38,258 nt of DNA from the IMG/VR virus record IMGVR_UViG_3300043313_001413, positions 1-38,258 of that record, one strand, 5' to 3'. Below the pieces are notes generated by a model. It was not told the origin of the DNA. It worked only from the letters and a program-made list of their open reading frames with translations, and did not search any database. Shown here piece by piece: positions 1 through 38,258 of this stretch (within the stretch, counting starts at the first letter, position 1; every line of letters starts with the position of its first letter). The DNA comes from a virus. Made by a program: the position numbers and the translations under genes.

Positions 1-68
1 CTGTAGATCCCGACGTGAACGTTACCGGGATATTTACCGAAGATCCAACACTAACAACGTTGGCTCCA
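1..68. repeat. Left copy of 68-bp terminal direct repeat (circular closure)
   Basis: Positions 1-68 are identical to 38191-38258. The minus-strand reading frame is open across the join when the two copies are merged. The simplest reading is assembly overlap of a circular or circularly permuted genome of about 38,190 bp. A true short terminal repeat is less likely, because the repeat lies inside a coding sequence. Confidence 0.9.
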
Positions 69-997
69 AGAGAAACAGACAACGGTGTTACTTCCGGAGG
101 AGGTGGGGGTGGGGGCGGCGGAGGCGGAGGAGGCGGTGGCGGTGGCGGCGGGGGAGGAGGACATTCCGGGCCCGTCAAAGTACATTTCGCTCCGCAACTG
201 TCCAAGCCATCAGCCGTCTGGCCGCAAGCGGGAATTTCTCCCTTACAAGTCCCATCCGGTACGCAAGGCGGAGGAGGCGGCGGGGGGGGTGGTGGAGGTG
301 GAGGCGGTGGTGGAGGACATACAGGCCCTGTAAGCGTACATTTATTGCCGCAGTTGTCTACTCCGTCACCCGTCTGGCCGCAAGCCGGAGCCGTCCCTTT
401 ACAGGAACCGTCCGACACACAAGGCGGCGGTATTTCGCATCCTGAACAATCATTCCCCCCGCATCCCGGCACAGACGCACATGCTCCGTCAACGCAAGCC
501 TCATGCGGATCACTCTGCCCTTCTGGGCAGGCTCCACAAGCCTGATCATCTGAGCAAACATCAAGACCGCAACCAGCTATGGCAACACACGTTTTACCCG
601 AACAAACCTTGTGCGGGTCCGACTCGCCCACAACGCATTCTACAGTTGGCCCAGTGATCGTTATGAAGAGTACCGCAGTCGCCGTACCTCGCCAATTGGA
701 CGCTTCTAAAGTCACAGTCGAAACGCCAATCGTTGACGGTATCCCAGAGATAATCCCAGTCTTTTTATTCACCGACAAGCCTTCCGGCAACCCGGAAGCC
801 CCGTAGGAGGTCGGGTGATGCCTGGCCTGAATCTGATAAGTAAACGTGACGTTGACTTCTCCGGTCACAGCCCCGGCTATGATTTCTGGCGCGTGTCTCC
901 TGTGCTTCTCCGATTGTCCGTGAGCTTGCGCTACAGGCAATGCCCCGAAGAAAATCATCATCGGCAAAACCATTAACCATCCGTGAAGTCTTTTCAT
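1..997 (-). CDS. Origin-spanning secreted Ig-like / Cys-repeat / poly-Pro / cohesin-like protein, N-terminal part
   Basis: This gene starts at ATG 997, behind an AGGAGGA ribosome site, and runs off the left edge in frame. It continues at 38190 and stops at 37877, giving 436 residues. Residues 1-25 are a Sec signal peptide ending in AQA. Residues 37-118 look like a He_PIG-type Ig fold (GLPEGLSVNKKTGIISGIP core). Residues 121-192 hold two Cys-rich repeats sharing SDPH and GCG. Residues 193-227 and 245-279 are two 35-residue Cys modules (shared CGQT, TLTGP) followed by runs of 17 and 22 prolines (228-244 and 280-301). The cohesin-like domain starts near residue 302. It lies near the end of the late unit after the lysis genes. 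Function is unknown; a surface adhesin, an exclusion factor or a virion fiber are all possible. The domain calls are my reading of the residues. Confidence 0.85.
   Translation of the reverse strand, partial: MKRLHGWLMVLPMMIFFGALPVAQAHGQSEKHRRHAPEIIAGAVTGEVNVTFTYQIQARHHPTSYGASGLPEGLSVNKKTGIISGIPSTIGVSTVTLEASNWRGTATAVLFITITGPTVECVVGESDPHKVCSGKTCVAIAGCGLDVCSDDQACGACPEGQSDPHEACVDGACASVPGCGGNDCSGCEIPPPCVSDGSCKGTAPACGQTGDGVDNCGNKCTLTGPVCPPPPPPPPPPPPPPPPPCVPDGTCKGEIPACGQTADGLDSCGAKCTLTGPECPPPPPPPPPPPPPPPPPPPPPPEVTPLSVSLGANVVSVGSSVNIPVTFTSGST
95..160 (-). repeat. 22-proline codon tract
   Basis: This is a run of 22 consecutive CCN codons on the minus strand, linking the second Cys module to the cohesin-like domain. 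All four proline codons are mixed, so the tract is not a simple slippage product. It would form a stiff polyproline II linker outside the cell, and translation of it would be expected to depend on EF-P. Confidence 0.9.
266..316 (-). repeat. 17-proline codon tract
   Basis: This run of 17 consecutive mixed CCN codons on the minus strand separates the two 35-residue Cys modules of the origin-spanning secreted protein. Confidence 0.9.
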
Positions 998-1010
998 AGA
1001 TCCTCCTATT

Positions 1011-1553
1011 TTAGCCTCTATGCCAATTCGGCAAATTTAACCGCGATTCCTCTGACGGCGCAGGCGCAGGCGGCTCCTTCGGCGGAACAGGCTCAGTTGA
1101 TCCCCCGCCAAAACCAAGCACTAGATCAAAGAATGGGATAAATACGTGAGGCGTCGTCACCAGGGTCGTACTCAGCGACGGCCCAACCACCATATTTTTC
1201 AGTAAAGCAGGCGGCTCATCGACAAAATCAGTCAAAAAATACCCCAGGTTAATTCCGATCTTGCCCGTATCCAGGGCCTTCAGCGTCCCGTTGTTCTGGG
1301 GCACGAAGGTCCCGCCCGCTGATAGATTTAAGAACCGATAATCGACAAGAGAAGCCAGCGCACTCCCGCAGTATTGCCCCGCCTTCACATTGACGGAATC
1401 ATCGCTCCGCATGGCAATCGCCATTCCTGCCTGCGCGGAACTCCCCAATCTCCATTTTGTCTCAGATTGGAGATCCTGCCATAGATCAAACGCCGCACAA
1501 GGTTTAAGTGGTCCGGCTAAAAATAGCCCAATGGCTAATAGAACCTTTTTCAT
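1011..1553 (-). CDS. Secreted hypothetical protein with Pro-rich C-terminus
   Basis: I do not recognise this 180-residue protein. It begins with a lysine pair and a hydrophobic stretch ending near CAA (about residues 1-20), which is a good Sec signal peptide. The middle alternates short polar and hydrophobic stretches that could be beta-strands. Residues 150-168 are rich in proline and glutamate. The ATG sits behind a GGGGGG ribosome site and overlaps the stop of the upstream small membrane gene as ATGA. It is followed after 13 bases by the origin-spanning secreted protein, so the two are probably co-translated and may act together in the envelope. An outer-membrane barrel is possible but unproven. 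Confidence 0.7.
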   Translation of the reverse strand: MKKVLLAIGLFLAGPLKPCAAFDLWQDLQSETKWRLGSSAQAGMAIAMRSDDSVNVKAGQYCGSALASLVDYRFLNLSAGGTFVPQNNGTLKALDTGKIGINLGYFLTDFVDEPPALLKNMVVGPSLSTTLVTTPHVFIPFFDLVLGFGGGSTEPVPPKEPPAPAPSEESRLNLPNWHRG

Positions 1554-1798
1554 GTAAGCCCCCCTTTATTTTGGAAACGCAGCCGTAAGTAATCCTCCAA
1601 CGCTTCAAGCGCCGCCAGAAGCGCGCCCCCCGCCCCCGCTTGAAACATCACCGAATCCAACGTCCAGCCGAACCGGGCCTGCAGCGCAACCATCTTGCCG
1701 GAAGCAAAGAAAGCCGCCGCCCACTTGACAACAATGATAATGACTTTCCTGGCCGCCACGCTGAAAAGATAATTCTTTGCTTTCAGGACAAAATCCAT
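1550..1798 (-). CDS. Small hydrophobic protein, holin candidate
   Basis: This 82-residue protein starts at ATG 1798, preceded by a GGGGGA ribosome site. A start further upstream at 1882 is possible but has no such site. Residues about 11-33 and 45-63 are hydrophobic, so there may be two membrane segments, and the C-terminus is charged. It lies directly after the M15 endolysin and overlaps the next gene by ATGA. A holin is the obvious guess from size and place, but there is no diagnostic motif. It could also be an unrelated small membrane protein. Confidence 0.6.
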   Translation of the reverse strand: MDFVLKAKNYLFSVAARKVIIIVVKWAAAFFASGKMVALQARFGWTLDSVMFQAGAGGALLAALEALEDYLRLRFQNKGGLT

Positions 1799-1896
1799 AG
1801 AGTCCCCCGCCGAACAATAAAAGCAAGCTCTCCCAAAAACCCGAGCGATACCTGCTCGAAAATAACGAAGGCCAGAACGCAAACCATCTCAGTCAT
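1783..1896 (-). CDS. Possible 37-residue membrane mini-protein
   Basis: This frame starts at ATG 1896, overlapping the endolysin stop, and ends 16 bases inside the next gene. The product would be a single hydrophobic helix with a basic tail. Such overlapping membrane genes are common in phage lysis cassettes (holin, antiholin or spanin). The ribosome site is weak and the frame is short, so it may be a chance frame. Confidence 0.3.
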   Translation of the reverse strand: MTEMVCVLAFVIFEQVSLGFLGELAFIVRRGTLWILS

Positions 1897-2263
1897 AGCA
1901 CAATCCGATAACTCCTTGAACATAATCCGGCGGCGCGCCAACATCGACATGGAGGTGCGCTTGATACAAAAATATCCTGACAAAACCCGCGCTCAAAAGA
2001 GCCTGAACCATCCTAAACCGCGCACCGTCCCGCTCTCCGCCTTCGACTAAATGACCAAGCCCAAGATCTACCGCTAAACCCCTAATATGCGCCGAACGGT
2101 CAGCTCCCATCGCAGCGGCATTAGCCGCGCATGACCGTAAACCGGAAGTGATGAAAAATGGAATCCCCGCAACTTCTCGCGCGGTATCTAACTTAGACAT
2201 GAGTTCCGGCGCAAGCCCGACCATTAATGGATCTTTCTCCGGCGTGAACCATTTAAAAGTCAC
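1889..2263 (-). CDS. Endolysin, peptidase M15 family (D-Ala-D-Ala carboxypeptidase type)
   Basis: This 124-residue enzyme is expected to cut cell-wall peptide cross-links at the end of infection. The M15 signature is clear: ITSGLRS at 38-44, S-x-H-x-x-G-x-A-x-D with zinc ligands H59 and D66, and a final H-x-D at 105-107 supplying the third ligand. The length fits a single catalytic domain without a cell-wall binding domain. It starts at GTG 2263, overlapping the upstream stop as GTGA, so it is translationally coupled. No signal peptide is seen, so a holin is needed for release. Neighbouring small membrane genes support a lysis cassette. Confidence 0.88.
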   Translation of the reverse strand: MTFKWFTPEKDPLMVGLAPELMSKLDTAREVAGIPFFITSGLRSCAANAAAMGADRSAHIRGLAVDLGLGHLVEGGERDGARFRMVQALLSAGFVRIFLYQAHLHVDVGAPPDYVQGVIGLCYD

Positions 2264-2838: not shown

Positions 2839-3087
2839 TTAGGCTGGCTCTGTCGGCGGCGGATTTACCTTGTCCAGCTCAGCCTGCACTTCCGCGTTGT
2901 CGCCCTTTAAGTCCGCAATCGCGCCCGTCACTTCGTCAACGAGCGGCTGCAAGTCCGCTCCGCCCGGAACCGCCGCGATCAGCTTTTCTACCGCCGCGAT
3001 CAAGTCCCTGGTTTCCTTCAACTGCTCAACCACCGCGTCTCGCAAGTCTTTTACCGCCGCCAATGCTTCTTCTAATGTTTTAGCCAT
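2839..3087 (-). CDS. Small coiled-coil protein
   Basis: I favour ATG 3087, which has an AAAGGAG ribosome site about 11 bases upstream and gives 82 residues beginning MAKTLEEAL. A longer frame to 3153 begins right after the upstream stop without a ribosome site. The sequence is alpha-helical with regular heptads of Ala, Leu, Val and Ile, no cysteine, and a Pro-rich acidic end. It may be a trimeric coiled-coil structural accessory. Function unknown. Confidence 0.65.
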   Translation of the reverse strand: MAKTLEEALAAVKDLRDAVVEQLKETRDLIAAVEKLIAAVPGGADLQPLVDEVTGAIADLKGDNAEVQAELDKVNPPPTEPA

Positions 3088-3153
3088 TTTCTTAAACTCC
3101 TTTGTTAATTTTTTGAACTGCTTTTCAAAATAAACGCATTCTTTTTTTGTCAT

Positions 3154-3519
3154 CTATTTACAGATCGTCCCAGTCGAGAGAACAAAATCATTCCCAGCCC
3201 CAGGAGCCGTTGTGATTGTGGAAATACAAACTGTTCCAGAACCGCCGTTAGCAGCGCAATTATTGCAATATACCATCTGCCCAACGACAGAAGGCGTACT
3301 TGCGGCAATCTGCGCGATTGTTTGACTGATGAGTCCTACGGTCACCGAAGAAATCACGACTCCCGCATTCTGAGACAATCCCCAATCATATCCATTGGAA
3401 ACAGGGACCGATCCGTTCGGACTCTGCGGCGGCAACGTTTCCGTATAGCGCGTCGGAACAGCATACAGCAATCCAACAACAACCGTAACAGCAAAAACAC
3501 TACCTAGCAGCTTTTTCAT
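3154..3519 (-). CDS. Secreted hypothetical protein
   Basis: This 121-residue protein starts at ATG 3519 with an AAAAGGA ribosome site. Residues 1-20 form a Sec signal peptide. The C-terminal half holds a CNNC pair and a Thr/Gly-rich segment ending at a final Cys-Lys, consistent with exported disulfides. It is the first gene of the late unit downstream of the plus-strand HNH gene. It resembles in style the other secreted proteins of this phage but has no family I recognise. Confidence 0.65.
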   Translation of the reverse strand: MKKLLGSVFAVTVVVGLLYAVPTRYTETLPPQSPNGSVPVSNGYDWGLSQNAGVVISSVTVGLISQTIAQIAASTPSVVGQMVYCNNCAANGGSGTVCISTITTAPGAGNDFVLSTGTICK

Positions 3520-3554
3520 TTTGTTTTTTCCTTTTGTATCTAGTATAGTGGTTT

Positions 3555-4073
3555 ATGATCTGCAATAAATGCCAGATCGATAAACCCATCGACAGTTTCA
3601 AGAATCGATACCATCAATGTACGTCCTGTCGTTACAAATGGAACCAACAATGGTTTCTTAAACATCCTACGTATAGAAGAAATTATCTGAGAAAATATAG
3701 GAACAATAATCCAGAAAAATATAGACGATATCTTCTTAATTCGAGAGCCTACCAAAAAGAATGGCGCAAAACACATCCTTTGTATCAGGCACAATATAGA
3801 GCAAAAAAACATGCACAAGATAGAGCAAAAAATCGCCTTTACTTTACCTTGTATAGACGGAAATATAGAAAAACTCATAAATTGTGGAAGCATAAAGAAC
3901 AAAAAGCGCGTGCGGCAGTTTATCGCGCTATTCGTTTCGGAAACATGACTAAAAGCTCCTGTCGGGACTGTAAAATTATTGAGAAAGTTCAAGCTCATCA
4001 TCCAAATTACGACCGTCCCTTAGATGTCATTTGGCTTTGTCAGCAATGCCATCGAAATGAACATAGAAAATGA
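3555..4073 (+). CDS. HNH-type endonuclease with N-terminal zinc knuckle
   Basis: This 172-residue protein begins with a CxxC...CxxC zinc-binding segment (residues 3-25). A very basic helical region rich in Arg, Lys and Tyr follows. It ends with an HNH-like core near residues 143-170: AHHPNYDRPLDVIWLC then CHRNEH. This ending is frequent in free-standing phage nucleases. It lies antisense within the minus-strand late unit, convergent with the 482-residue gene, and is visibly richer in A and T than its neighbours. Both facts fit a mobile homing-type gene. Confidence 0.8.
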   Translation: MICNKCQIDKPIDSFKNRYHQCTSCRYKWNQQWFLKHPTYRRNYLRKYRNNNPEKYRRYLLNSRAYQKEWRKTHPLYQAQYRAKKHAQDRAKNRLYFTLYRRKYRKTHKLWKHKEQKARAAVYRAIRFGNMTKSSCRDCKIIEKVQAHHPNYDRPLDVIWLCQQCHRNEHRK

Positions 4074-5522
4074 TCATTTTCCTTTTCCTTGATATTTCTT
4101 ACTTAGGAAATCGCTTAATTGAGCCGGAATTGTTCGTCCTACATTCGCCGCTGTACTGCCTGCCATTTTTGGGATACCTTCGCCAACAAGAAGATCGTGA
4201 ATCGCCGCAGCCGTCTTAGCAGATAATCGATAGCCTGCGGCGTCCGCCATCTTTTGAACGAAGGACTTTCCTAAACTCATCCCACCACGCCCAGCTATAT
4301 CTCTAAGCTCTCCGCGTTTCTGGAGATGTTCCAAAGGATGAAGTCTCGTTTGTTCTTCTAATAGGTCAAGATATTGTTTTCCCTTATCAGCTCCAAGAGT
4401 TTGAACAATTCCGGCATTATTCTCACGACTCAAAGCATTCGCTACGTCAGTCTCCGCCGTGATGGGCTGATACATCTTGTTTCCAGCCGCATACTTATTT
4501 ATGTCCGTTGCCGCTTCCGCATACCCTGCATGAGTCGGAGGCCTGGAAACGACATCTAACGGAGCTTGCCCTAACTCAGCAGCTTTGGGAGTTTGTCCGA
4601 CAACTTCAATCCCCTTGGCTTGCAAATCCTTGAAAGGGACATTCCCAGTTGTTTGAATTCCTGTCAATTTCGGATCACCGTAAACTTTATAGGACGACAC
4701 GCCTGTAATGGGGTCGTTATAATCAAAGAGCGCAACGGGTTTCCCTGTCATCGGACCTTTTGCGACAACAGGCAATTTACCCGTCGCTTCCCGAACGGCC
4801 TCTATCGTCTTTTCAACAGCTGGAGCTTCTGCCGAACGTAAAGATTTTGGACCGTATTTTCTCATCACATAATTTTTAACTTTCTCAAGAATTCCAGATT
4901 GAGCTGGACCCGCTTCTGCTCTCAAATTGCCGATTCCTTCGCCCGTTGATTCGAGTAAAGATTCTAGTTGCTTATCTCGTCCAATGCCTGTGCTCCAAAC
5001 ATCAGCCAATCCCTTATCACGAGCATATTTTGCCGCTTTATCAAGGCCTACTCTTCCCTCGCGACCTTGTGCCATCCTCGCAATCTGCCCCATCGTTCCA
5101 CCAAGACTCTTTAAAGTCTGATTGTCAGCAATACGCCCAATCGAAGGGACGATATTTTCAGTATTCGGAATAAGCTTTCCAACCGTCGGAATTTTACTCG
5201 CCGCTGGCAACGCATCGCTCAATACAGACCCCGCCGCTTTTCCTGCCAGCCCAACCCCCAGCTTTCCAAGACCATAAGCTCCTTGCGCGGCCAAAGCGTC
5301 AGTTACCGATACATCCTGAAGGCCAGGCTCATTCCTGATCTCACTTTCAGGAGCCATCAGAATGGGTTTTCCCGCCTGAATATCCCATCCATGCGATGAA
5401 GTTGTATCCGGCTCAATAGTTTGACCGAACAATCCAACTTCAGAAGGTGGCGGCTCATCTGTAAAAAGGCTGTCCAAAGAAGCGTTAGGAGGCGGTTCGT
5501 CAGTAAAGAGGTCGTCGTTCAT
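4074..5522 (-). CDS. Putative internal virion protein (482 aa)
   Basis: No known domain is recognised. The N-terminus repeats LFTDEPPP twice (about residues 5-26). This is followed by a small-residue-rich, glycine-rich stretch near 78-105 that could insert into membrane, and then helical charged regions. Such acidic repeat openings occur in large podovirus ejection proteins. It starts at ATG 5522 overlapping the previous stop as ATGA, last of three adjacent low-complexity virion genes. A role in DNA ejection is inferred from place and composition only. Confidence 0.65.
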   Translation of the reverse strand: MNDDLFTDEPPPNASLDSLFTDEPPPSEVGLFGQTIEPDTTSSHGWDIQAGKPILMAPESEIRNEPGLQDVSVTDALAAQGAYGLGKLGVGLAGKAAGSVLSDALPAASKIPTVGKLIPNTENIVPSIGRIADNQTLKSLGGTMGQIARMAQGREGRVGLDKAAKYARDKGLADVWSTGIGRDKQLESLLESTGEGIGNLRAEAGPAQSGILEKVKNYVMRKYGPKSLRSAEAPAVEKTIEAVREATGKLPVVAKGPMTGKPVALFDYNDPITGVSSYKVYGDPKLTGIQTTGNVPFKDLQAKGIEVVGQTPKAAELGQAPLDVVSRPPTHAGYAEAATDINKYAAGNKMYQPITAETDVANALSRENNAGIVQTLGADKGKQYLDLLEEQTRLHPLEHLQKRGELRDIAGRGGMSLGKSFVQKMADAAGYRLSAKTAAAIHDLLVGEGIPKMAGSTAANVGRTIPAQLSDFLSKKYQGKGK

Positions 5523-6511: not shown

Positions 6512-7072
6512 ATGGCCGAAATCTGGAAAGATGTGCCTGGATATAAAGGTTTTTATAAAGCATCCAACTTTGGAAGAATTAAAAGGCTCTATAAAACAAA
6601 AGAAAAAATACTGTCTGCAAAACCACGAATCAATAAACCACGATGCGGATATATTTTTGCAACATTGAGCAAACATGGAACGGATAGAGATTATCCTATT
6701 CATCAAATAATTGCGTCGTGCTTCCTGTCGCCAAAACCTTTTAAAAAGGCCGAAATAAATCATAAAGACTTTGTCAAAACAAATAACCGACCTAATAATT
6801 TGGAATGGTGTACTCATGCAGAAAACATGAGACACGCTTTTAAGCGCAATGCTAATATCAGAAAAACCGCATTTTCTTTTGGAATCAGAACACGTGAAAT
6901 TAACAATAAGCTGACCAAACAACAAGTCATAGAAATCCGCAATATGCTTGCCAATGGAAAACCGTGTCGTGATATTGCTTCTATTTTTCATGTTTGCAGA
7001 AAGAGCATCGGAAATATAAAACACGGAAAAACTTGGTCATGGCTAAGCAGTCCCCATTCGCAATTCCCTTAA
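6512..7072 (+). CDS. NUMOD4-HNH homing endonuclease
   Basis: This 186-residue protein has the classic homing endonuclease order. NUMOD4 lies at about residues 1-50 (EIWKDVPGYKGFYKASNFGR). The HNH_3-type core lies near 86-112 (INHKDFVKTNNRPNNLEW). A C-terminal helix-turn-helix segment lies near 129-170. The gene lies antisense between two virion genes, and its last 30 bases overlap the end of the 422-residue gene. It is AT-rich relative to its neighbours. Homing enzymes of this type cut intronless alleles of a neighbouring site and spread with their gene. Confidence 0.88.
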   Translation: MAEIWKDVPGYKGFYKASNFGRIKRLYKTKEKILSAKPRINKPRCGYIFATLSKHGTDRDYPIHQIIASCFLSPKPFKKAEINHKDFVKTNNRPNNLEWCTHAENMRHAFKRNANIRKTAFSFGIRTREINNKLTKQQVIEIRNMLANGKPCRDIASIFHVCRKSIGNIKHGKTWSWLSSPHSQFP

Positions 7073-14619: not shown

Positions 14620-15210
14620 TTAGTCCACCTCTAAATATCTTTTAACTTCCGTAAGATATTTCTCATAAAAACCAAGTTTCAAATTGCAACTTGTGCAGAG
14701 CAATCCTCTTACTTTGCCTGTCGCATGGTCATGGTCAACAGAAAGCCATTGTTTTTGCATCCTCTTGCAAATAGCACATGAACCTTTTTGTTCGGCAAAC
14801 ATCAATTCATAATCCGCCATGGTCATTCCAAATTTATTCAATAAAACCTGACGCTCCAAAATCCGATTGTGTTCGTAATTTCTGGCCCTCCGTTCACGAT
14901 CCTGTTTTCTATAAAGCTCTGGAACTTCAGCGCGTCGCTTTCTATTCCACGCATTAATACATGATTTGCACCCACCACCAACAAAAAGTAATTTAGAACT
15001 CCGATAATGTCCGTTAGAACAGTAAAGATTGCAATATCCTTTTCCTTCTACTCCACGATTTTGCCTAACTTTTGGATGCGCTAATCTATACGCTTTTACT
15101 TTTAAATAGTTGCACATTTTGCAAAGAGGGTCTATCCGATATTCATCTCGACGTTTTCTGAAAACCATTTCATAATCGGGTTTCTCGATGTTACAGCGGT
15201 TACATTTCAT
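14620..15210 (-). CDS. Endonuclease VII-like HNH nuclease
   Basis: This 196-residue protein starts at ATG 15210, overlapping the connector gene stop as ATGA. A longer frame to 15246 would lie inside the connector gene. The C-terminal half has the recombination endonuclease VII pattern: CAIC at 145-148, VDHDH at 158-162, GLLCTSC at 169-175, then a helical end. The N-terminal half has three further Cys pairs, probably extra zinc knuckles. Classical EndoVII resolves branched DNA before packaging. Here the gene is wedged between connector and fiber genes and ends two bases before the apparent fiber start, so a mobile free-standing nuclease is more likely. Confidence 0.85.
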   Translation of the reverse strand: MKCNRCNIEKPDYEMVFRKRRDEYRIDPLCKMCNYLKVKAYRLAHPKVRQNRGVEGKGYCNLYCSNGHYRSSKLLFVGGGCKSCINAWNRKRRAEVPELYRKQDRERRARNYEHNRILERQVLLNKFGMTMADYELMFAEQKGSCAICKRMQKQWLSVDHDHATGKVRGLLCTSCNLKLGFYEKYLTEVKRYLEVD

Positions 15211-16244
15211 CGACAGAACGGGAACCCAAAACCCGAACCCCACCAAGACCCTAAATTACGATTGACAATCTTCTTCGGAGTTCCATCAATGCGAGGGCTC
15301 ACCGTCCGCGCAAAATCAACCGCCATGTCCTGATACCGCCGCTCGGCAATCGTCAGATTCTGCGTGTCTCCCAACGCCTCCAAAATCTTGATCGCCCCGC
15401 GCTGCGCCAAAAGCGGAAACATGTCGTAGGGAATCTGCGGAACACACGACACCATCGACGGACAAACCCAGTCGCCTACCGTTAAACCAACTGGCAGCCT
15501 CGGTAACGCCACGCCCGTCACAGGGTTTGTCCCAGGACTCGAAAACGTCAGCGTGTAAGGACCGCCAGCCGGAAGACTGACCGCGCTTACCGTCTGGTCG
15601 TCCTGCCTGGAAGTAAATTGCGGAGAATTCGGAATAATGTCGAAAGTAGTCGCCGTCGTCCAGCTCGTATCGGCATTGTCCAGCGTCACAACAAATGTTC
15701 CCGTATTAATCGCCGTGATCTGCCCGCAATTGTCTGACGAGGTAAGATTGTTTGGACGCCTCTTAATCTTCATGCGCAACAAGTACTGCGTCGGGACGCC
15801 GGAGTTCGGCGGCCAAAGAACTACCTGGTCGTTCACCAACACAAACCCGAACACGTAAAGCGGCGGATTGCCGCCAGCCGGGAAAGTCAGCTTCAAATAT
15901 TCAGGAGCCAGGTCGGTGAGATTGATTTCCATGCCGTTCGTATCAACGAACACCACGTCCCGCCACGTCGCAAAAGCGGCACGCGGAGGGATCGTGTAAT
16001 TGTAAGTGCCCGCTACAATCGCCTGGTCAAAATTCTTGACCCAAAACTCCTCCTGCGCCGCCAGCACTAACGGAACAATCGTCGAGCGCATCTCCTCGTC
16101 CAGAAACGTAATCACATCATCCGGCTGAATCGCGCCCGCCGCGTTCGGAGCCAAAGTCCGACGATACGCGCTGGCTACAAGCGATTGAGCCGACGACCCC
16201 TGCGTCCCCGTCGCATCAACCGTAAAGTCGATTGTCGCCGTCAT
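15207..16244 (-). CDS. Head-to-tail connector / adaptor protein
   Basis: This 345-residue protein has an alpha-helical N-terminus (SLVASAYRRTLAP; FLDEEMRSTIVPLVL), a beta-rich middle, and a helical C-terminal part with Arg-Arg-Tyr (residues 285-310). This is the arrangement of podovirus adaptor proteins (P22 gp4 or T7 gp11-like) that sit beneath the portal. It lies between capsid-side genes and tail genes, as adaptors do. I rely on arrangement and position rather than a diagnostic motif. Confidence 0.65.
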   Translation of the reverse strand: MTATIDFTVDATGTQGSSAQSLVASAYRRTLAPNAAGAIQPDDVITFLDEEMRSTIVPLVLAAQEEFWVKNFDQAIVAGTYNYTIPPRAAFATWRDVVFVDTNGMEINLTDLAPEYLKLTFPAGGNPPLYVFGFVLVNDQVVLWPPNSGVPTQYLLRMKIKRRPNNLTSSDNCGQITAINTGTFVVTLDNADTSWTTATTFDIIPNSPQFTSRQDDQTVSAVSLPAGGPYTLTFSSPGTNPVTGVALPRLPVGLTVGDWVCPSMVSCVPQIPYDMFPLLAQRGAIKILEALGDTQNLTIAERRYQDMAVDFARTVSPRIDGTPKKIVNRNLGSWWGSGFGFPFCR

Positions 16245-18641: not shown

Positions 18642-19631
18642 CTACTTCTTGTTCTTCAGTGAATCCAAATAGTCGTGAAACTGGTCCGAATTAATCGTCT
18701 TGCGCTCGCTGGTCCGCTCACGCGGTTTGCCAGTCGATTCCTTCGTGTCCTTCTCGGCAGCTTTCACAGCTTTCAAAAAGTATTTGCGGACCTTCTCGGC
18801 ATTCTCTTTGCCAAGCTCCTCGACAAGTTTGTCCTCGTCAAGAGCGTCATAATAAAGCTTCTGATATTCCTTCAGCTCCGTCCTTACTTTAGCCGCCGCG
18901 TCTTTGGCTGTGCAAGGCTGATGCGCTAAGTAACTCACCCGCATCACGTCCGCTACACGCTTGGCTAACTGCGCGCCAATCGGCGTGTCAATGTTCGGCA
19001 ACCCAATCTCCGCCAACGCTTCTTTGATCTGTCCCGACAACTGCGCCATCGCCTGCTGTACGCGAACCTGGTTCTCCTGCGCTAAAAGTTGCTCCGACCG
19101 AGCCTTTTCACTAGCCGACAACTCCGCAATGCGTTCATCACGCTCCAAAATAGCGCGGTCCCGCTCGTCCATCGTCTCGCGCTTGTAAACGTTCTCATAG
19201 TACCACCGTCCGACCGTCTCCTTGATCGGATCAGAAATCTTCGTCGATTGCAAAATCTTCTGTAGCGCGACTTCAGGCGTCAACCCTACCTTCGGATTAA
19301 AAAGAACTTGCGCCGGATCGGTTTTCAGAAGATCCAGAAACTGCGCCGTCTCAGTCTGCAACCGCGCCAGTTCGCTGATGCGCGGCTCAAAACGAATTCC
19401 TTTGTGAACGTACGTTTCTACTTCATCCGGTCGCAACCAGAACTCTTTGCCATCAACAAGATATTTCTGCTTGCCAGCGTTCGGGTCTACGGGAAGAGGC
19501 TCTTTACCGCCGCCCTTTGCTTCAATAGGCTTTTCAGGAACCTTGCCAGCGGCTTTATCTGTAATTCCCTTAACGAGATTCTTCGCTGTCTCGCTGGCCC
19601 CCTTAACTTCCGCGACGCCTGCCTCAGCCAT
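18642..19631 (-). CDS. Capsid scaffold protein
   Basis: This 329-residue, highly charged helical protein lies between portal and capsid genes, the standard place for a scaffold. The N-terminal 60 residues are disordered and Lys/Glu/Pro-rich. A predicted coiled coil spans about 150-200 (RDRAILERDERIAELSASEK). The C-terminal 50 residues are basic, matching the helix that binds capsid subunits in other scaffolds. No enzymatic motif is present. Confidence 0.75.
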   Translation of the reverse strand: MAEAGVAEVKGASETAKNLVKGITDKAAGKVPEKPIEAKGGGKEPLPVDPNAGKQKYLVDGKEFWLRPDEVETYVHKGIRFEPRISELARLQTETAQFLDLLKTDPAQVLFNPKVGLTPEVALQKILQSTKISDPIKETVGRWYYENVYKRETMDERDRAILERDERIAELSASEKARSEQLLAQENQVRVQQAMAQLSGQIKEALAEIGLPNIDTPIGAQLAKRVADVMRVSYLAHQPCTAKDAAAKVRTELKEYQKLYYDALDEDKLVEELGKENAEKVRKYFLKAVKAAEKDTKESTGKPRERTSERKTINSDQFHDYLDSLKNKK

Positions 19632-20029
19632 TACTCACTCCTAAACCGCAACAGCGAACTTCCGCCAGCACCCGTCGACACCGCCCACATCGCACCCGTG
19701 TACGGCTCAGAACCATCCGGCGTAAAAGGAACACTAGACCCACCTACCAAATAAAATGAGCCCGTCGTCAAACTGATCGAAAATGCCGCCGCCGTGTCAC
19801 CGGAAACCGATGCCGTAGAAGGCCCCACCAAGTAAATCGTGTTGGTGCTGGTGTTGATTAACCAAGTCCGCTTAATGTTGGCATTCTTCGTCAAAACCTT
19901 CGTCGGAGAAGCCGCCGTATTGGAAACTACCACGCCGCCCGTGTCCACAGGATCAACCGCTAAACTATATGCCCATAACCCATAACTGAAAATCCCGGTC
20001 AAAATCAATGCAAAGAATGCTGTTTTCAT
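19631..20029 (-). CDS. Secreted protein encoded between portal and scaffold
   Basis: I choose ATG 20029, preceded by AAAGGAGAGG; a longer frame to 20050 overlaps the portal gene. The 132-residue product begins MKTAFFALILTGIFSYGLWAYSLA, a clear Sec signal peptide, followed by a Thr/Ser/Gly-rich beta domain without cysteines. A signal peptide in the middle of the head gene cluster is unusual. Either the protein is exported early or the peptide is used for something other than secretion. No family is recognised. Confidence 0.7.
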   Translation of the reverse strand: MKTAFFALILTGIFSYGLWAYSLAVDPVDTGGVVVSNTAASPTKVLTKNANIKRTWLINTSTNTIYLVGPSTASVSGDTAAAFSISLTTGSFYLVGGSSVPFTPDGSEPYTGAMWAVSTGAGGSSLLRFRSE

Positions 20030-20046
20030 ACCTCTCCTTTGTCTCG

Positions 20047-22155
20047 TCAAACCACTTCCGCTAACTGCGGGCCCACAGGCTGCGGCCCGGGAATCCCCGT
20101 CTGTGGCAATACCTGACTCGGCTGCGACGGCATCCCAGGACGGCCCGTAGGCTGAACAGGATTTGTTCCGTTCACAGGCGGACCAGGAGCACTAGGCGGA
20201 GCTAGCGGCGGCCCTTGCAGACCAGGCTGTTGCGGCTGAATCTGTAACTCCGTCGGAGTCCCAGGCGGAATCGCCGGGTCGCCAATAATTCCAGCCAGAA
20301 TCGGATTAAGCGTCGCTAACGCCTGAATGTGCGCCTGAATGTGAATCAACCCCGCCTTCACGTACGGCAAATCAGGATTCAGACGCGCCTCAAGGGTGTC
20401 CAACATCGCCGTGTGCTCAAGTATGTGCATCACGTGATTGTCCGTCGCTAACACCTGCGGCTGCTGGCCTTTCATCATCGCTTCATTCTCAGCCTTCACA
20501 AGCTTCAACTGCGATTCCTGGCGATGATACAACTGCGGCAAGTCGCCTTCCGTGTACACGCCGATGTACTGCTGCGCGTCTTTAATCAAACCCGTCTTCA
20601 TCAAATTGTCCGCCATCTGCATCTTACCCGCCGGAGTCTGAAGCATCGGATTGGTCAATTCCACACTCACCGAATCAATATCGTTTAAATCCGCCGACGT
20701 GAACTCTTTTAAATACGGCTCACTCGAGACCCCGACAATCGAAGCCACTTTCGTGCCGATCATGTTCTTCTTGATCGTCTTGATCGTCCCAGTCATCGTC
20801 CCTTCAATCAACCGCGCATACGCTTTCTGCGCCCCCGAATTAAATATCACCGACTGCACCGACACAAGAGCCGCATACTGCCCGCTCGTCACGTTCTGGT
20901 CCGGTTGCCCGCGATCCATCGCGCTCAAGCCCCCAATCGTTTCCATCGCCTCCACGCACTTGTCCATCAACTGATAACTCTCCGGGGCCGAATGCAAAAG
21001 GTTCAAACTCTCCGGCTTGGCATTCTGGCCCATCTTCGGGTCATATTCCAAGTACGTCATCCCAGTGGCCAAATTCTGATAATGCAGATTCGCGCCCTTC
21101 GGACCCATGATGAGCTGCGTCGCAAAATTAATGTTGTTGGAGCTGACCGCACTCAAAAGCTCGTTGAACATCTGCTGAATCGGAATCAAATCAAATCCCA
21201 CCGTGTAGCCAAACGGCGATCCCTGCATCGTCGTCACAATCATGTCGTAAACGGGAATGTGGTCATAGCCGCCTTGCCCCTCGCCTTTATCAAGCGGCCC
21301 GTCTTCAAAGACCGTGGTTGGATCAGCCATGACCAGTAAACGACCTTGCGGCACCGCAGGCGTCCGTTCGTGAAAGAAATAAAATACCGGGATCGTTTCC
21401 GAATCATGGTGTATAAGTGTGACGAGTTTCGTGCCGTACGTCGATTCGGTATCACTGAGATTCACCACCTCATCATGAAATTTGGGATACATCGCCGCCC
21501 AATCGTACTTGTTCACCCAACGCCTAATGCACCGCCACTGCACCATATCGCGGTCCTGATGCGTCGTGTTGATGATTTGATCCAGCGGCGTCACGTTGAA
21601 ATACTCCATGTCGCCGTCGCGATGCATGAACCCAGTAGCAGGATCGCTTACGACTTCCTCGCCCTTAAACCGATTCCACAGCCCGCAAATGCTCGACTCG
21701 CCGAACACCAGACAATCCTCTACCGCCTGCTTGCCCTTGGAATCCAAATCGTACTCCTGCGCCGTGCAATAGCGATTCGACAGCCCGTTCGCAAACTCGA
21801 TAATCTCCGCCGAGCGACTGTTGCTGTTGAGCACCTGCGCTTTAAATGCGATCTTGTTTTGCGTCGTCTTGATCTTGATGTGCAGAAGAATGTTGCGGAG
21901 ATGATTCCAAAATGAACGCGTCAGCTCGCCCATCTCGCCGCTCTTGTACATCGAGGCACGCATAATCCAACCCATGTAAAAATTCATGAAGCTGTTACGA
22001 TAAAGAGCCAAGCGTCCAGTCCTGCGACATTCGTTGTAGTAACTTTCAATGCGGTCCCAAATCTCGTTAGCGCATTCCATCGTCGGAAGATTGGCAAAAT
22101 ACTTTTCCGCGCTGGCGCGTAAAGGCTTCTTCGTCGTGTCCGTCTTGTCAATCAC
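20047..22155 (-). CDS. Portal protein
   Basis: At 702 residues the length suits a podovirus portal. The N-terminal part is helical and aromatic (YYNECRRTGRLALYRNSFMNFYMGWIM). The centre has the VGFDLIPIQQMFNELLSAVSSN segment, typical of the long crown/stem helix, and the C-terminal 90 residues are Pro/Gln/Gly-rich and disordered. It is adjacent to the terminase and scaffold genes. It forms the ring through which DNA enters and leaves the head. Confidence 0.85.
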   Translation of the reverse strand: MIDKTDTTKKPLRASAEKYFANLPTMECANEIWDRIESYYNECRRTGRLALYRNSFMNFYMGWIMRASMYKSGEMGELTRSFWNHLRNILLHIKIKTTQNKIAFKAQVLNSNSRSAEIIEFANGLSNRYCTAQEYDLDSKGKQAVEDCLVFGESSICGLWNRFKGEEVVSDPATGFMHRDGDMEYFNVTPLDQIINTTHQDRDMVQWRCIRRWVNKYDWAAMYPKFHDEVVNLSDTESTYGTKLVTLIHHDSETIPVFYFFHERTPAVPQGRLLVMADPTTVFEDGPLDKGEGQGGYDHIPVYDMIVTTMQGSPFGYTVGFDLIPIQQMFNELLSAVSSNNINFATQLIMGPKGANLHYQNLATGMTYLEYDPKMGQNAKPESLNLLHSAPESYQLMDKCVEAMETIGGLSAMDRGQPDQNVTSGQYAALVSVQSVIFNSGAQKAYARLIEGTMTGTIKTIKKNMIGTKVASIVGVSSEPYLKEFTSADLNDIDSVSVELTNPMLQTPAGKMQMADNLMKTGLIKDAQQYIGVYTEGDLPQLYHRQESQLKLVKAENEAMMKGQQPQVLATDNHVMHILEHTAMLDTLEARLNPDLPYVKAGLIHIQAHIQALATLNPILAGIIGDPAIPPGTPTELQIQPQQPGLQGPPLAPPSAPGPPVNGTNPVQPTGRPGMPSQPSQVLPQTGIPGPQPVGPQLAEVV

Positions 22156-31845: not shown

Positions 31846-32328
31846 ATGCCAATGGGAATTTATCCTAGGAAACCGCTCAAAGAACGATTTTGGAAATTTG
31901 TACGGAAAGGAAAGAATTGCTGGGAATGGAAAGGCGCGACTTACGTAAAGGGTTATGGCGAAATCGGAGTAACCAATCAGCTCATTGGAGCCCATCGCGT
32001 TTCCTGGCAAATTCATTATGGACCAATTCCAAAAGGACTCTGCGTTTTACACCGTTGCGATAACCCCCCTTGCACGAATCCGAAACATTTGTTTTTGGGG
32101 ACCAAGGGTGACAACAATCGGGACAAGGTTAAAAAATGGCGGCACCGTTACGGAGTTCATCATCATTTGACAACTTTAACGGAATCCCAAATCGCGCAGA
32201 TTAAGAAATACGGGCAGGCAAGACTTGTTCCCTTTATGCACCTAGCAAAGATTTTTAGAACATCGGAAATGACAATCCATAACATCGTCAAAAATCGTAC
32301 CTGGAGGTACATCAATGCTGAAAGCTAA
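31846..32328 (+). CDS. HNH_3 homing-type endonuclease with HTH tail
   Basis: This 160-residue protein has an AHRVSWQIHYGPIPKGL segment near residues 46-62. It is followed by the HNH_3 core LHRCDNPPCTNPKHLFLGT (about 65-83) and a C-terminal helix-turn-helix (residues 108-152). It overlaps the next gene by 14 bases and contains that gene's GGAGG site. It is AT-rich and probably mobile, inserted between the leader gene and the recombination module. Confidence 0.88.
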   Translation: MPMGIYPRKPLKERFWKFVRKGKNCWEWKGATYVKGYGEIGVTNQLIGAHRVSWQIHYGPIPKGLCVLHRCDNPPCTNPKHLFLGTKGDNNRDKVKKWRHRYGVHHHLTTLTESQIAQIKKYGQARLVPFMHLAKIFRTSEMTIHNIVKNRTWRYINAES

Positions 32329-35089: not shown

Positions 35090-35380
35090 ATGAAAAATAA
35101 AAAAGTGGTCATCGTACGGACTTATAGCGCGGGTGTATTTATGGGGGTATTAAAATCGCGGAAAGGTCAGGAAGTTGTGCTTGAAAATGCAAGGCGTATC
35201 TGGTATTGGGCTGGAGCGGCTTCTTTAAGTCAATTGGCTATGGAAGGGACTTCTAAACCGGAAAGCTGTAAGTTTCCTTGTCCTGTAGATCGCGTTGAAC
35301 TTTTACAGGCTATCGAAATTCTCGACGTCACTGAACGAGCGCGTAAAAGCATAGAAGCAGTCCCTATATGGCAACAATAG
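35090..35380 (+). CDS. DUF6948-type conserved protein
   Basis: ATG 35090 follows AAAGGAGGCTCA and is preferred over the in-frame ATG at 35075. The product is 96 residues, with VVIVRTYSAGVFMGVL, then ARRIWYWAGAASLSQLA, then FPCPVDRVELLQAIEI. I recognise this as a widely conserved phage family, DUF6948, of unknown function. It is followed directly by the hexamer repeat. Confidence 0.75.
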   Translation: MKNKKVVIVRTYSAGVFMGVLKSRKGQEVVLENARRIWYWAGAASLSQLAMEGTSKPESCKFPCPVDRVELLQAIEILDVTERARKSIEAVPIWQQ

Positions 35381-35571
35381 GGTCCGGGTCCGGGTCCGGG
35401 TCCGGGTACGGGTACGGGTACGGGGACGGGTCCGGGGACGGGTCCGGGTCCGGGTACGGGTCCGGGTACGGGTACGGGGACGGGTCCGGGGACGGGTCCG
35501 GGTCCGGGTACGGGTCCGGGTACGGGTCCGGGGACGGGTACGGGGACGGGGACGGGTACGGGGACGGGTAA
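35368..35571 (+). CDS. Gly-(Ser/Tyr/Asp) dipeptide-repeat protein (67 aa), possibly translated
   Basis: ATG 35368 lies in the last codons of the upstream gene, and the frame stops at 35571. The product would be MATI followed by 31 Gly-X pairs, where X is only Ser, Tyr or Asp. Gly is always GGG and X always ends in C. Translation is uncertain, but the frame stays open along the whole repeat and ends with a clean stop just before the next gene's start region. Such a peptide would be flexible, acidic and sticky (Tyr/Asp). Confidence 0.4.
   Translation: MATIGSGSGSGSGYGYGYGDGSGDGSGSGYGSGYGYGDGSGDGSGSGYGSGYGSGDGYGDGDGYGDG
35380..35568 (+). repeat. GGGNNC hexamer minisatellite with a 54-bp higher-order repeat
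   Basis: This is 189 bases of the unit GGG-NNC, where NNC is TCC, TAC or GAC. A nine-unit block (YYDSDSSYS in translation) occurs twice in tandem, so the array has second-order structure. A G-run every three or six bases makes it a strong G-quadruplex candidate on the plus strand. Confidence 0.9.
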
Positions 35572-35856: not shown

Positions 35857-36107
35857 GTGAGGAAAACATGGCCATGAAAACAAAAGAGCAAAAAAAAGCG
35901 GAGCGTGAAACCTATCGGCGAGAAGTTGATGCTTGCGATTGTCTTTCGCCGGAGCGTAAGAGTTATATCCAATCCCAAATGGATTTCGCGGAGGACTTCT
36001 CCGACGGTGCGTTTATGGCTTTCATGGAAGAGTCCGGTATTGACGTCTCGGAGTTGAAATGTTTTTCGACAACGCATTATGCGGAGACGCACCAGGGAGC
36101 TCAATGA
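35853..36107 (+). CDS. Small acidic helical protein (84 aa)
   Basis: ATG 35853 overlaps the upstream stop. The product has a Lys/Glu-rich N-terminal helix and an acidic, Phe/Met-rich C-terminal part. Two cysteines sit close together (DACDCLS). Function unknown. Confidence 0.6.
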   Translation: MSEENMAMKTKEQKKAERETYRREVDACDCLSPERKSYIQSQMDFAEDFSDGAFMAFMEESGIDVSELKCFSTTHYAETHQGAQ

Positions 36108-36223
36108 TAAGTCTCTTAAAACAATACATTCATTGCTTACTGCATTTTCACCGTCCGGTCGACTACTTTAGACTAAATGGTTCTATTTCTCGGGAATGCG
36201 AATGCGGATGGCCAAGACCGTGA
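36104..36223 (+). CDS. Cys-rich mini-protein (39 aa)
   Basis: This is coupled by ATGA. A late ECECGW and an early CLLHFH may form a metal site. Its 3' end overlaps the lipoprotein start. Confidence 0.45.
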   Translation: MISLLKQYIHCLLHFHRPVDYFRLNGSISRECECGWPRP

Positions 36224-36369
36224 CGACAATTCTTTTGCTCTTGCTGCTTCTTTCCGGCTGCGGGACCTACAAGCCCTGCCACTTGCCGAGCGGGGAACCT
36301 TTGACGCAGGCGGATGCGAATTTGCTGAAGAATCAAGGACTGACTGTAAGTTGCCCGGGCGATGAATGA
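36196..36369 (+). CDS. Lipoprotein (57 aa)
   Basis: Basic residues, a run of Leu and the lipobox LLSGC (Cys near residue 22) mark a lipoprotein signal. The mature part has about 36 residues, with two more cysteines. Three in-frame ATGs (36196, 36202, 36208) are possible starts. It may act as an exclusion factor or outer-membrane spanin partner, but it is far from the lysis genes. It overlaps the HNH gene as ATGA. Confidence 0.65.
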   Translation: MRMRMAKTVTTILLLLLLLSGCGTYKPCHLPSGEPLTQADANLLKNQGLTVSCPGDE

Positions 36370-36839
36370 TTCCGGAAATTTTCTGGTCTAAGGTTAAAAA
36401 AACAAAAACCTGTTGGCTGTGGACCGGAGCTAAAAATAGTCGCGGACATCCTGTGAGATATGGAAAGGTTTCAATTAGCGGCAAGTGGTGGAAGCATGAA
36501 ACAGCACACCGAGTTGCATGGAAATTAACTCACGGAAAAATCCCTGCCGATAAGATGGTTTGCCATAAGTGTGCCATCCCTTTGTGCGTAAAACCAACAC
36601 ATTTATACCTTGGTACAGACAGTGATAATCAACTAGATCAAATCGATACGTCGCGGTGGAAACATATAAAAAAACGGAAATCCGTTAATAAGCGATACAA
36701 AATTACGGAGAAAACTGTTCGATGGATTCTTGAAAATTACAGGCGCGGAAAAGGCAGGAAAATGGCTAAACGATTTAAAATAAGTCCGCCTCAAATATCC
36801 AGAATCGTAAATCGTAAAGGATGGGCCTGGGTTCGATAA
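36366..36839 (+). CDS. HNH_3 homing-type endonuclease
   Basis: This 157-residue protein has AHRVAWKLTHGKIPADKM near residues 46-63 and a core VCHKCAIPLCVKPTHLYLGT close behind, then a helix-turn-helix tail (YKITEKTVRWILENYRRG). Its layout matches the HNH gene at 31846. It is AT-rich and last in the plus-strand unit, so it may have inserted at the unit end. Confidence 0.88.
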   Translation: MIPEIFWSKVKKTKTCWLWTGAKNSRGHPVRYGKVSISGKWWKHETAHRVAWKLTHGKIPADKMVCHKCAIPLCVKPTHLYLGTDSDNQLDQIDTSRWKHIKKRKSVNKRYKITEKTVRWILENYRRGKGRKMAKRFKISPPQISRIVNRKGWAWVR

Positions 36840-36853
36840 GATCGCCACAGCCT

Positions 36854-36873
36854 GCGGTTTCGGGGATAACCGC
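36854..36873 (+). terminator. Weak hairpin between convergent units
   Basis: GCGGTT and AACCGC form a 6-bp stem with an eight-base loop between the HNH gene and the convergent secreted gene. No clear T-run follows on either strand, so termination is uncertain. Confidence 0.35.
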
Positions 36874-36887
36874 TAACCCTTCCTAAT

Positions 36888-37517
36888 CTACCTTTGCTGT
36901 GATAGGTTTAGTTGCTGAGCTACGACAGCAATACTCCCGATACTCCCCCAAGCGTTTGCACTTGAATTCGCATTTGTTCCCGTATCGGTCGAACTCACGA
37001 TTTTAGCCTGAAGCTCGATCTTCACATTTCCGGCAGTGGTTGGCTTGGCAAACACAAACGAGTTGGCGTCCATCGTCTGCAAGATTAACCCAATCGACTC
37101 GTCGGCATACTCGCAATCCGCCGTCGAGATAACCCCGTCCACAACCGGGCACTGGTCGATAATTCCCTGCAACGCCGCGCTCAAGGTCTGCATCCGACTG
37201 CAATACGTGACCTGTGTAGGCGTAGACGGAACTCCATTTACCAGAACTCGGAAATACACCGCTCCCGTCGCCGTCACGCTCTCTTTCTTGCCCTTCTGAG
37301 TGCTGACGTTGGTCTCGGTATAAATACCGCACTCGCCAGTGGTAAGAAGCGTCAAGAGCTTGTTATTGGAAGTCTTGGTACTGAAACTCCCAATCGTCGT
37401 CCAGTCCATATTGGCCTTGACTAAACTAACGTCGCTGGCTGTGAACCCCGTTCCGATCGCCTGAACGGTAGAACTCAACATCCCTAACAGACACATCAAA
37501 CTAAGTACTTTTTTCAT
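36888..37517 (-). CDS. Secreted protein, last gene of the late unit (209 aa)
   Basis: Signal peptide at residues 1-20 (MKKVLSLMCLLGMLSSTVQA). The mature part is a Thr/Ser/Val-rich beta protein with four cysteines (GECG, TYCSR, IIDQC, TADCEY), which may form disulfides. The ATG follows GAGGGG. It is convergent with the HNH gene. I do not recognise a family, and its role is probably in the envelope or virion surface. Confidence 0.7.
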   Translation of the reverse strand: MKKVLSLMCLLGMLSSTVQAIGTGFTASDVSLVKANMDWTTIGSFSTKTSNNKLLTLLTTGECGIYTETNVSTQKGKKESVTATGAVYFRVLVNGVPSTPTQVTYCSRMQTLSAALQGIIDQCPVVDGVISTADCEYADESIGLILQTMDANSFVFAKPTTAGNVKIELQAKIVSSTDTGTNANSSANAWGSIGSIAVVAQQLNLSQQR

Positions 37518-37579
37518 GTTTTAACCCCTCTTGAGGCGTCGCCTGTTGGCAGGCAAAAGCCCGTTTTTACTTCTTTCGA

Positions 37580-37873
37580 CTAAATTTCCTGGGTTCTAAG
37601 ACCCCCTTCGGCAATAGGCGACCCCACATTGTGCGCGCCTTGGACTTGGCGGCTGAGTAACGCGCGTCCGAGAATCGCGTAATCGAAACATCCGGGACCT
37701 TGATATAAAACACCATGAAACGCTTCGGAATAAGGCGTAGTGTGTGAGCCATTCTCCCACATAGGCACCTCGTCCCCAATCCCCCAGACTCGATGAAGAA
37801 ATGCAGGAACTCGTCGCAAAACAAGAACCGCAGTTGTTGCCGCCCACCTAAATTCAGCGTTTCCATGCGCCAT
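37580..37873 (-). CDS. Hypothetical protein after the cohesin-like gene (97 aa)
   Basis: Three frames overlap here. I favour this one because about 40 percent of its codons begin with G, against about 24 percent in the alternative frame 37567-37866, and its residues look globular (GVLYQGPGCFDYAILGRALL). ATG 37873 follows the upstream stop by three bases without a clear ribosome site. Function unknown; possibly a small partner of the secreted cohesin-like protein. Confidence 0.45.
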   Translation of the reverse strand: MAHGNAEFRWAATTAVLVLRRVPAFLHRVWGIGDEVPMWENGSHTTPYSEAFHGVLYQGPGCFDYAILGRALLSRQVQGAHNVGSPIAEGGLRTQEI

Positions 37874-37876
37874 TGA

Positions 37877-38190
37877 TTATTGAATCGTCAATGTTCCGGG
37901 CGTTGCCGTCATAGGCACATTGGCCCCGGACGCATCGGAAGCTACAACGTTAGTAACAGAGATTACGTATGACTTCTTGACAGCTGAATCAGCCGCCTGC
38001 GCTGTCACAATCGCTACAATACCCGTCTTCATTGCGTTCTGGTTTAACCCGAAGACAATCACCTTCACGCCGCCCGCTATGAAAGACTCCGTCACGCTCT
38101 TACCTGCATCGGAGGCCGAAGGCCCTACAACGACTTTCGTCGCTGTAATCCCGGTAGGAAGCATCAGATCAAACTGAAGAGCACTTACTC
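37877..38190 (-). CDS. Origin-spanning secreted protein, cohesin-like C-terminal part
   Basis: This is the C-terminal 103 residues (about 334-436) of the gene that starts at 997. Together with the residues just before the join, the segment reads VSVGSSVNIPVTFTS, then STGVSALQFDLMLPTGI, and later VPMTATPGTLTIQ at the end. That is the strand pattern and loop spacing of a cohesin (or related carbohydrate-binding) fold. Cohesins bind dockerins in cellulosomes, but many bacterial cohesins outside cellulosomes have unknown partners. No dockerin is seen in this phage. Confidence 0.75.
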
Positions 38191-38258
38191 CTGTAGATCC
38201 CGACGTGAACGTTACCGGGATATTTACCGAAGATCCAACACTAACAACGTTGGCTCCA
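38191..38258. repeat. Right copy of 68-bp terminal direct repeat
   Basis: Identical to 1-68; joins the ends of the circular map. Confidence 0.9.

Follow-up and report, generated by a model that had tools for sequence, protein, structure and literature searches.

We propose, tentatively, that a 436-residue protein encoded by a phage from an environmental metagenome is a late-expressed, soluble, modular adhesin that is exported by the Sec pathway and carried as accessory cargo, and whose adhesion is tied to phage attachment. The window, by which we mean the whole 38,258-base virus record that was analysed, holds the gene in two parts, one at each end. Behind a Sec-type signal peptide the protein combines an Ig-like domain of the He_PIG type, cysteine-rich modules, two polyproline rods and a cohesin-like C-terminal domain (Table 1). 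As an adhesin, it is best read as either a tail-fibre-type accessory or an envelope binder.

Bases 1–68 of the window recur with 100% identity at 38191–38258. When position 38190 is joined to position 1, a single minus-strand frame runs from 997 to 1 and then from 38190 to 37877, comprising 437 codons and 436 amino acids; the join is read from the assembled contig. An earlier note on this DNA had obtained a 436-residue protein by joining the ends, and the 68-bp exact overlap and the continuous frame bear this out. The note had also called the gene split by the map ends; the split is real, but it only marks where the assembly opened a genome that is circular or circularly permuted. An artefact, with a faulty join or frame and no such protein made, is extremely improbable. 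The plus strand is likewise open owing to the repeats, and the join is supported by the contig rather than by reads, but the frame passes unbroken through the exact overlap, the join completes the cohesin-like domain, the Shine–Dalgarno match is perfect and the gene is packed as in an operon. The long glycine-rich frames on the plus strand simply reflect the proline codons of the opposite strand. Contamination from a host contig was considered and rejected, since phage genes flank the gene and the two ends of the contig overlap.

Table 1. Coordinates in the window of the 436-residue protein gene, its encoded segments and its neighbours.
Feature	Position	Strand	Basis or remark
N-terminal 332 codons of the 436-aa gene, ATG at 997	1..997	-	open frame
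C-terminal part of the 436-aa gene and stop codon	37877..38190	-	joined translation
Shine–Dalgarno AGGAGG	1002..1007	-	perfect match, 4 nt before the ATG of the 436-aa gene
Predicted Sec-type signal peptide MKRLHGWLMVLPMMIFFGALPVAQA, residues 1–25, AQA cleavage site, no lipobox	923..997	-	sequence; simple rule-based filter
He_PIG Ig-like domain, residues 37–118	644..889	-	PF05345; phrog_8763
Cys-rich repeat region, residues 119–192, 12 Cys	422..643	-	sequence
Cys module 1, residues 193–227, 35 aa, 6 Cys	317..421	-	sequence
17-proline rod, residues 228–244	266..316	-	sequence
Cys module 2, residues 245–279, 35 aa, 6 Cys	161..265	-	sequence
22-proline rod, residues 280–301	95..160	-	sequence
Cohesin-like domain, first part, residues 302 to about 332	1..94	-	PF00963
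Cohesin-like domain, remainder to residue 436	37880..38190	-	Pfam, fold comparison, phage homologues
68-bp direct repeat of bases 1–68	38191..38258	none	assembly overlap or terminal redundancy
Upstream neighbour with signal peptide, common transcription unit	1011..1553	-	13 nt before the ATG of the 436-aa gene
Membrane-segment protein in holin position	1550..1882	-	no family support
M15 peptidase endolysin	1889..2263	-	PF08291, 41.3 bits; phrog_894
Downstream small gene	37567..37866	-	weak homologue by the endolysin in G001, E 0.001
Further signal-peptide protein, closes the unit	36888..37517	-	

All of the other parts that had been described from the sequence (signal peptide, cysteine repeats, two 35-residue cysteine modules and linkers of 17 and 22 prolines) are present in the joined translation. 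The N-terminus suggests that the protein is exported. Its cleavage region, PVAQA-HGQ, contains no cysteine, the first one being residue 121; assignment as a spanin or as a lipoprotein of the superinfection-exclusion type was rejected because no lipobox cysteine follows the signal peptide. Next comes the He_PIG domain (PF05345, 36.7–37.3 bits against a cut-off of 24, Pfam E 4e-9, match at residues 43–115), and this stretch also matches a phage tail protein family, phrog_8763, with E 3e-6. The He_PIG score upholds the previously proposed Ig fold of residues 37–118 at the level of sequence, whereas a single-sequence model of the N-terminal part (pLDDT 44) is too poor for fold calling; within it, residues about 170–201 reach a pLDDT near 78. 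The protein has 24 cysteines in total, spread over the repeats and the two 35-residue modules, where they are likely to form disulphides. Family searches gave no match for the repeat region (residues 119–192), and neither a DNA-pattern scan of viral contigs nor a PDB search found a relative of the modules. Besides He_PIG and the isolated cohesin-like domain, no Pfam domain scored over its cut-off. The proline runs, exactly 17 and 22 residues long, are encoded by all four proline codons and therefore are not a simple slipped DNA repeat; they may well be rod-shaped.

By sequence, the assignment of the C-terminal domain to the cohesins is borderline. PF00963 scores 24.3 bits on isolated residues 302–436 against a cut-off of 24.1, and 20.5 bits, below the cut-off, on the whole protein. 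Because sequence-profile searches of the PDB gave no significant cohesin match, the assignment draws its support from Pfam and the fold comparison. A 126-residue model of the domain, built with three sequences, has nine strands at low-to-medium confidence (pLDDT 65, pTM 0.60). Compared with solved structures by VIA-align, it is closest to Clostridium perfringens 2jh2 (Z 10.7 over 109 residues); the top 38 rows are all cohesins or cohesin-like modules (Z 10.7 to 8.4), and unrelated pilins enter at Z 8.4. Foldseek concurs, with 2xdh, 2vo8 and 4uyp as its best matches (E 0.0025 to 0.0042). The cohesin-type C-terminus suggested in the earlier note thus passed the check by structure prediction, with cohesins as the best fold matches of a model at this pLDDT. 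The likeness is to the non-cellulosomal cohesins of Archaeoglobus fulgidus (2xdh) and C. perfringens (2jh2, 2vo8) and consists in the nine-stranded sandwich of the model and the best fold matches; identity to the cohesin chains listed is 10–19%. Both bacteria and archaea have cohesins outside cellulosomes (PMC9012536). The domain differs from PF00963 cohesins in its setting: a late gene of a phage encodes one copy of it, preceded by a polyproline rod. Nor does the protein resemble a cellulosomal scaffoldin: it has one cohesin, He_PIG is the only other Pfam domain over its cut-off, and no dockerin-like pattern was found in the phage. In a viral structure library, the phage protein A0A6J5M064 has a weakly similar fold (E 0.011, TM 0.61).

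Homologues of this domain occur in other phages. A DNA pattern for LQFDL.LP.G, run on viral contigs, gave nine matches, two of which are real (L150 and L151, leading to records G050 and G051, respectively). A hit from a separate pattern scan, L145, in a repeat-rich tail protein, was rejected as a chance match. G050 (IMGVR_UViG_3300032156_000049) encodes a 174-residue protein with the domain at 39% identity and a Pfam Cohesin score of 31.4 bits, above the cut-off. The ATG of its gene overlaps the stop codon of the preceding gene, whose tail-like product has a signal peptide and a poly-Thr linker; downstream lie genes for coiled-coil, hydrolase-like and membrane-segment proteins. Unlike the window protein, the G050 protein has a short N-terminus with no evident signal peptide, He_PIG domain, cysteine modules or rods. 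In G051 (IMGVR_UViG_3300012362_000005), the contig end truncates the domain (35% identity); small coiled-coil genes come after it, and the fragment has no Pfam Cohesin match. At its other end the contig breaks off within the gene for a 1,489-residue, tail-fibre-like protein that carries a signal peptide; were the contig circular, this frame and that of the domain would be one. We call the neighbours in both records tail-fibre-like from their sequences and place; family searches gave no match for them. The domains of the window, G050 and G051 have the motifs LQFDL.LP.G and FG.NQ in common. The head proteins of G050 and G051 fall outside the family of the window's head protein; these are phages unrelated to the window phage, with different capsid families.

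A profile of the three phage domains (A6), in a search whose positive controls were recovered, matched 3 of the 52 records searched, exactly the window, G050 and G051. Relatives of the 436-residue protein were found neither among INPHARED phages nor in plasmids nor in an exact-peptide scan of viral contigs. The one cellular relative, from a single genome-contig scan, is a metagenome-assembled genome titled Prevotella with seven weaker matches to the profile, and it is more distant (27%) than the phage homologues (38 and 33% in A6). The earlier impression of a host surface protein is accordingly too narrow, since phage relatives are closer than the sole cellular one found. The statement that no phage system is known to be built on such a domain needs correcting as well: two unrelated IMG/VR phages carry the domain by tail-fibre genes, and A0A6J5M064 has a weakly similar fold. 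Because the same domain occurs in two unrelated phages and is absent from the other related records searched, including the syntenic G001, it is probably a sticking tool that phages swap, an accessory and exchanged cargo.

The genome around the gene is that of a phage: a terminase and a major head protein were identified by family match, a portal by a weak P22_portal match and also by homology, and primase-polymerase and DUF3987 genes are present. The 436-aa gene belongs to a late operon, because it begins 13 nt after the previous gene and the next gene lies within about 10 nt of its stop; promoter and terminator scans did little or no better than on shuffles. The earlier note had placed it directly after the lysis genes; the late unit stands, but gene 1011–1553 intervenes. 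The closest full-length relative, G001 (IMGVR_UViG_3300009148_000018), has a head protein 77% identical and is syntenic from terminase to endolysin. Sequence and profile searches found neither the 436-aa gene nor a cohesin-like domain in it. Between its endolysin and the weak homologue of window gene 37567–37866 it has one 71-residue frame, where the window has the holin-position gene, gene 1011–1553 and the 436-aa gene; this difference fits an accessory insertion, with a weak anchor on the far side. At 35927–37063, G001 has what looks by sequence like a tyrosine-recombinase integrase, but no counterpart turned up in those window genes that were examined; the two phages may differ in lifestyle. 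The window also contains three HNH_3 homing-endonuclease-like genes (6512–7072, 31846–32328 and 36366–36839, all on the plus strand), an endonuclease VII gene (14620–15246, minus strand) and a short frame at 35368–35571 of near-pure Gly, Ser, Asp and Tyr low-complexity repeats that overlaps the end of a small gene. In another contig, L005, terminase-like matches at 21–1184 and 3047–4420 (33% and 30% to the window's terminase) lie close together, perhaps a duplicated or split terminase.

Predicted Sec-type signal peptides begin several late or virion-module genes of the window (19631–20050, 3154–3519, 1011–1553 and 36888–37517). They also begin genes of G050 (L155 at 3291, 5447, 14041 and 15456; L150:2003–3976) and of G051 (L157:1–4467 and L158:4627–6003), including ones beside portal or head genes and genes for tail-fibre-like proteins. 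A strict rule-based filter retained three in the window and three in G050, against 0.14 per 10 kb in 132 related loci, and none in T7, P22 or 50 kb of SU10. Signal-peptide proteins of different phages near terminase or portal genes, at L158:4627–6003 (G051) and L003:4495–4731, have a motif such as NE(S/T)ALAY(N/S)NTY in common and are possibly a family of exported or virion-surface proteins from one host group.

To our knowledge, phage adhesins reported to date work through Ig-like, PKD or BACON domains that virions carry. Modular Ig-like phage adhesins are an established class (PMC13370021, PMC10385173), and cohesin is absent from the text of the former paper. T4 Hoc and the BACON/PKD proteins of gut phages (PMC10385173, PMC13370021) are similar to the window protein as phage-encoded strings of Ig-like β-sandwiches near structural genes; they are displayed on virions, whereas the window protein has a Sec signal peptide, cysteine modules, polyproline rods and a cohesin-like domain. 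T4 Spackle, gp61.3 (PMC7650644), is likewise phage-encoded and exported by a signal peptide, but it has 97 residues and inhibits the tail lysozyme. Members of the TMEM132 family (PMC6030884), for which an adhesive role has been proposed, join Ig domains to a cohesin homologue; this is a likeness of architecture only, TMEM132 proteins being animal membrane proteins. No paper on a phage cohesin domain was found in the limited set of open-access literature searched. What is new here is a putative modular phage adhesin of the Ig-like type with a domain that this literature describes for no phage.

The protein looks designed to space two binding heads outside the cytoplasm. Disulphide-rich modules and two stiff rods would keep a He_PIG head at the N-terminus away from a cohesin-like head at the C-terminus; as polyproline-II helices, the rods would measure about 5 and 7 nm. 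We propose that the protein is made alongside the lysis proteins, crosses the inner membrane and becomes free or exposed at about the time of lysis. It probably attaches to polymers of the host envelope or the extracellular space and may aid phage adsorption or retention, working in the manner of tail-fibre-associated Ig-like adhesins. Adhesion in phage attachment is our leading reading because the domain recurs by tail-fibre-like genes and moves between unrelated phages. Homologues stand at the end of a tail-fibre cluster, ahead of coiled-coil and putative lysis genes (G050), and at a contig edge (G051), presence across the records searched is patchy, as expected of swapped adhesion cargo, and the He_PIG part resembles a tail protein family. 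Against adhesion, a Sec signal peptide is odd for a component of a virion assembled in the cytoplasm, the window gene sits after the lysis genes and outside the tail cluster, the G050 version has no evident signal peptide, and the domain model reaches a pLDDT of only 65.

The signal peptide and the position by endolysin and holin-like genes would also suit an envelope-acting exclusion or lysis-phase protein that, like T4 Spackle or T5 Llp, works in the periplasm or at the surface to mask a receptor, block a second phage or stop progeny from binding debris. Phage periplasmic proteins with cleaved signal peptides do exist (T4 gp61.3, PMC7650644). Known examples are, however, small single-domain proteins or lipoproteins, and this one has 436 residues, rods, two heads and no lipobox; PADLOC defence profiles gave no match at E 0.01, and the domain homologues adjoin tail-fibre genes, so that we consider exclusion unlikely. 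We give about the same low weight to a host-derived moron, a captured adhesin gene that alters the host surface so that infected cells stick or aggregate. Modules of the He_PIG, cysteine-rich and cohesin kinds are characteristic of proteins on cell surfaces, the Prevotella-titled genome carries seven matches, and presence among related phages is patchy; but a long-term change of the host makes little sense for a gene in the late lysis unit, the window genes examined include no integrase, and the closest homologues found are phage-borne. True cohesin–dockerin pairing, in which the domain would bind enzymes or surface proteins from the host or its neighbours through their dockerins, is more doubtful still. 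The fold does match dockerin-binding cohesins, but a crude pattern scan of the window, G050 and G051 found no dockerin-like repeat, many cohesin-like modules have no known dockerin partner, and there is only one cohesin per protein.

Adhesion in phage attachment thus remains the reading that we prefer, and the recurrence of a cohesin-like domain by the tail-fibre genes of unrelated phages, once in a putatively exported, rod-like protein, would point to an undescribed exchangeable binding module. If binding in the cohesin–dockerin style were true, phages would gain one of the strongest protein grips known. A broader idea, which we regard as quite improbable, is that environmental phages of one short-tailed family use Sec to export adhesion proteins and exchange a cohesin-like docking domain among their tail-fibre loci, so that phage-made extracellular proteins dock, outside the cell, on virions or host surfaces. 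If this is true, Sec-exported adhesins with a shared docking domain would amount to a cellulosome-like assembly logic in phages.
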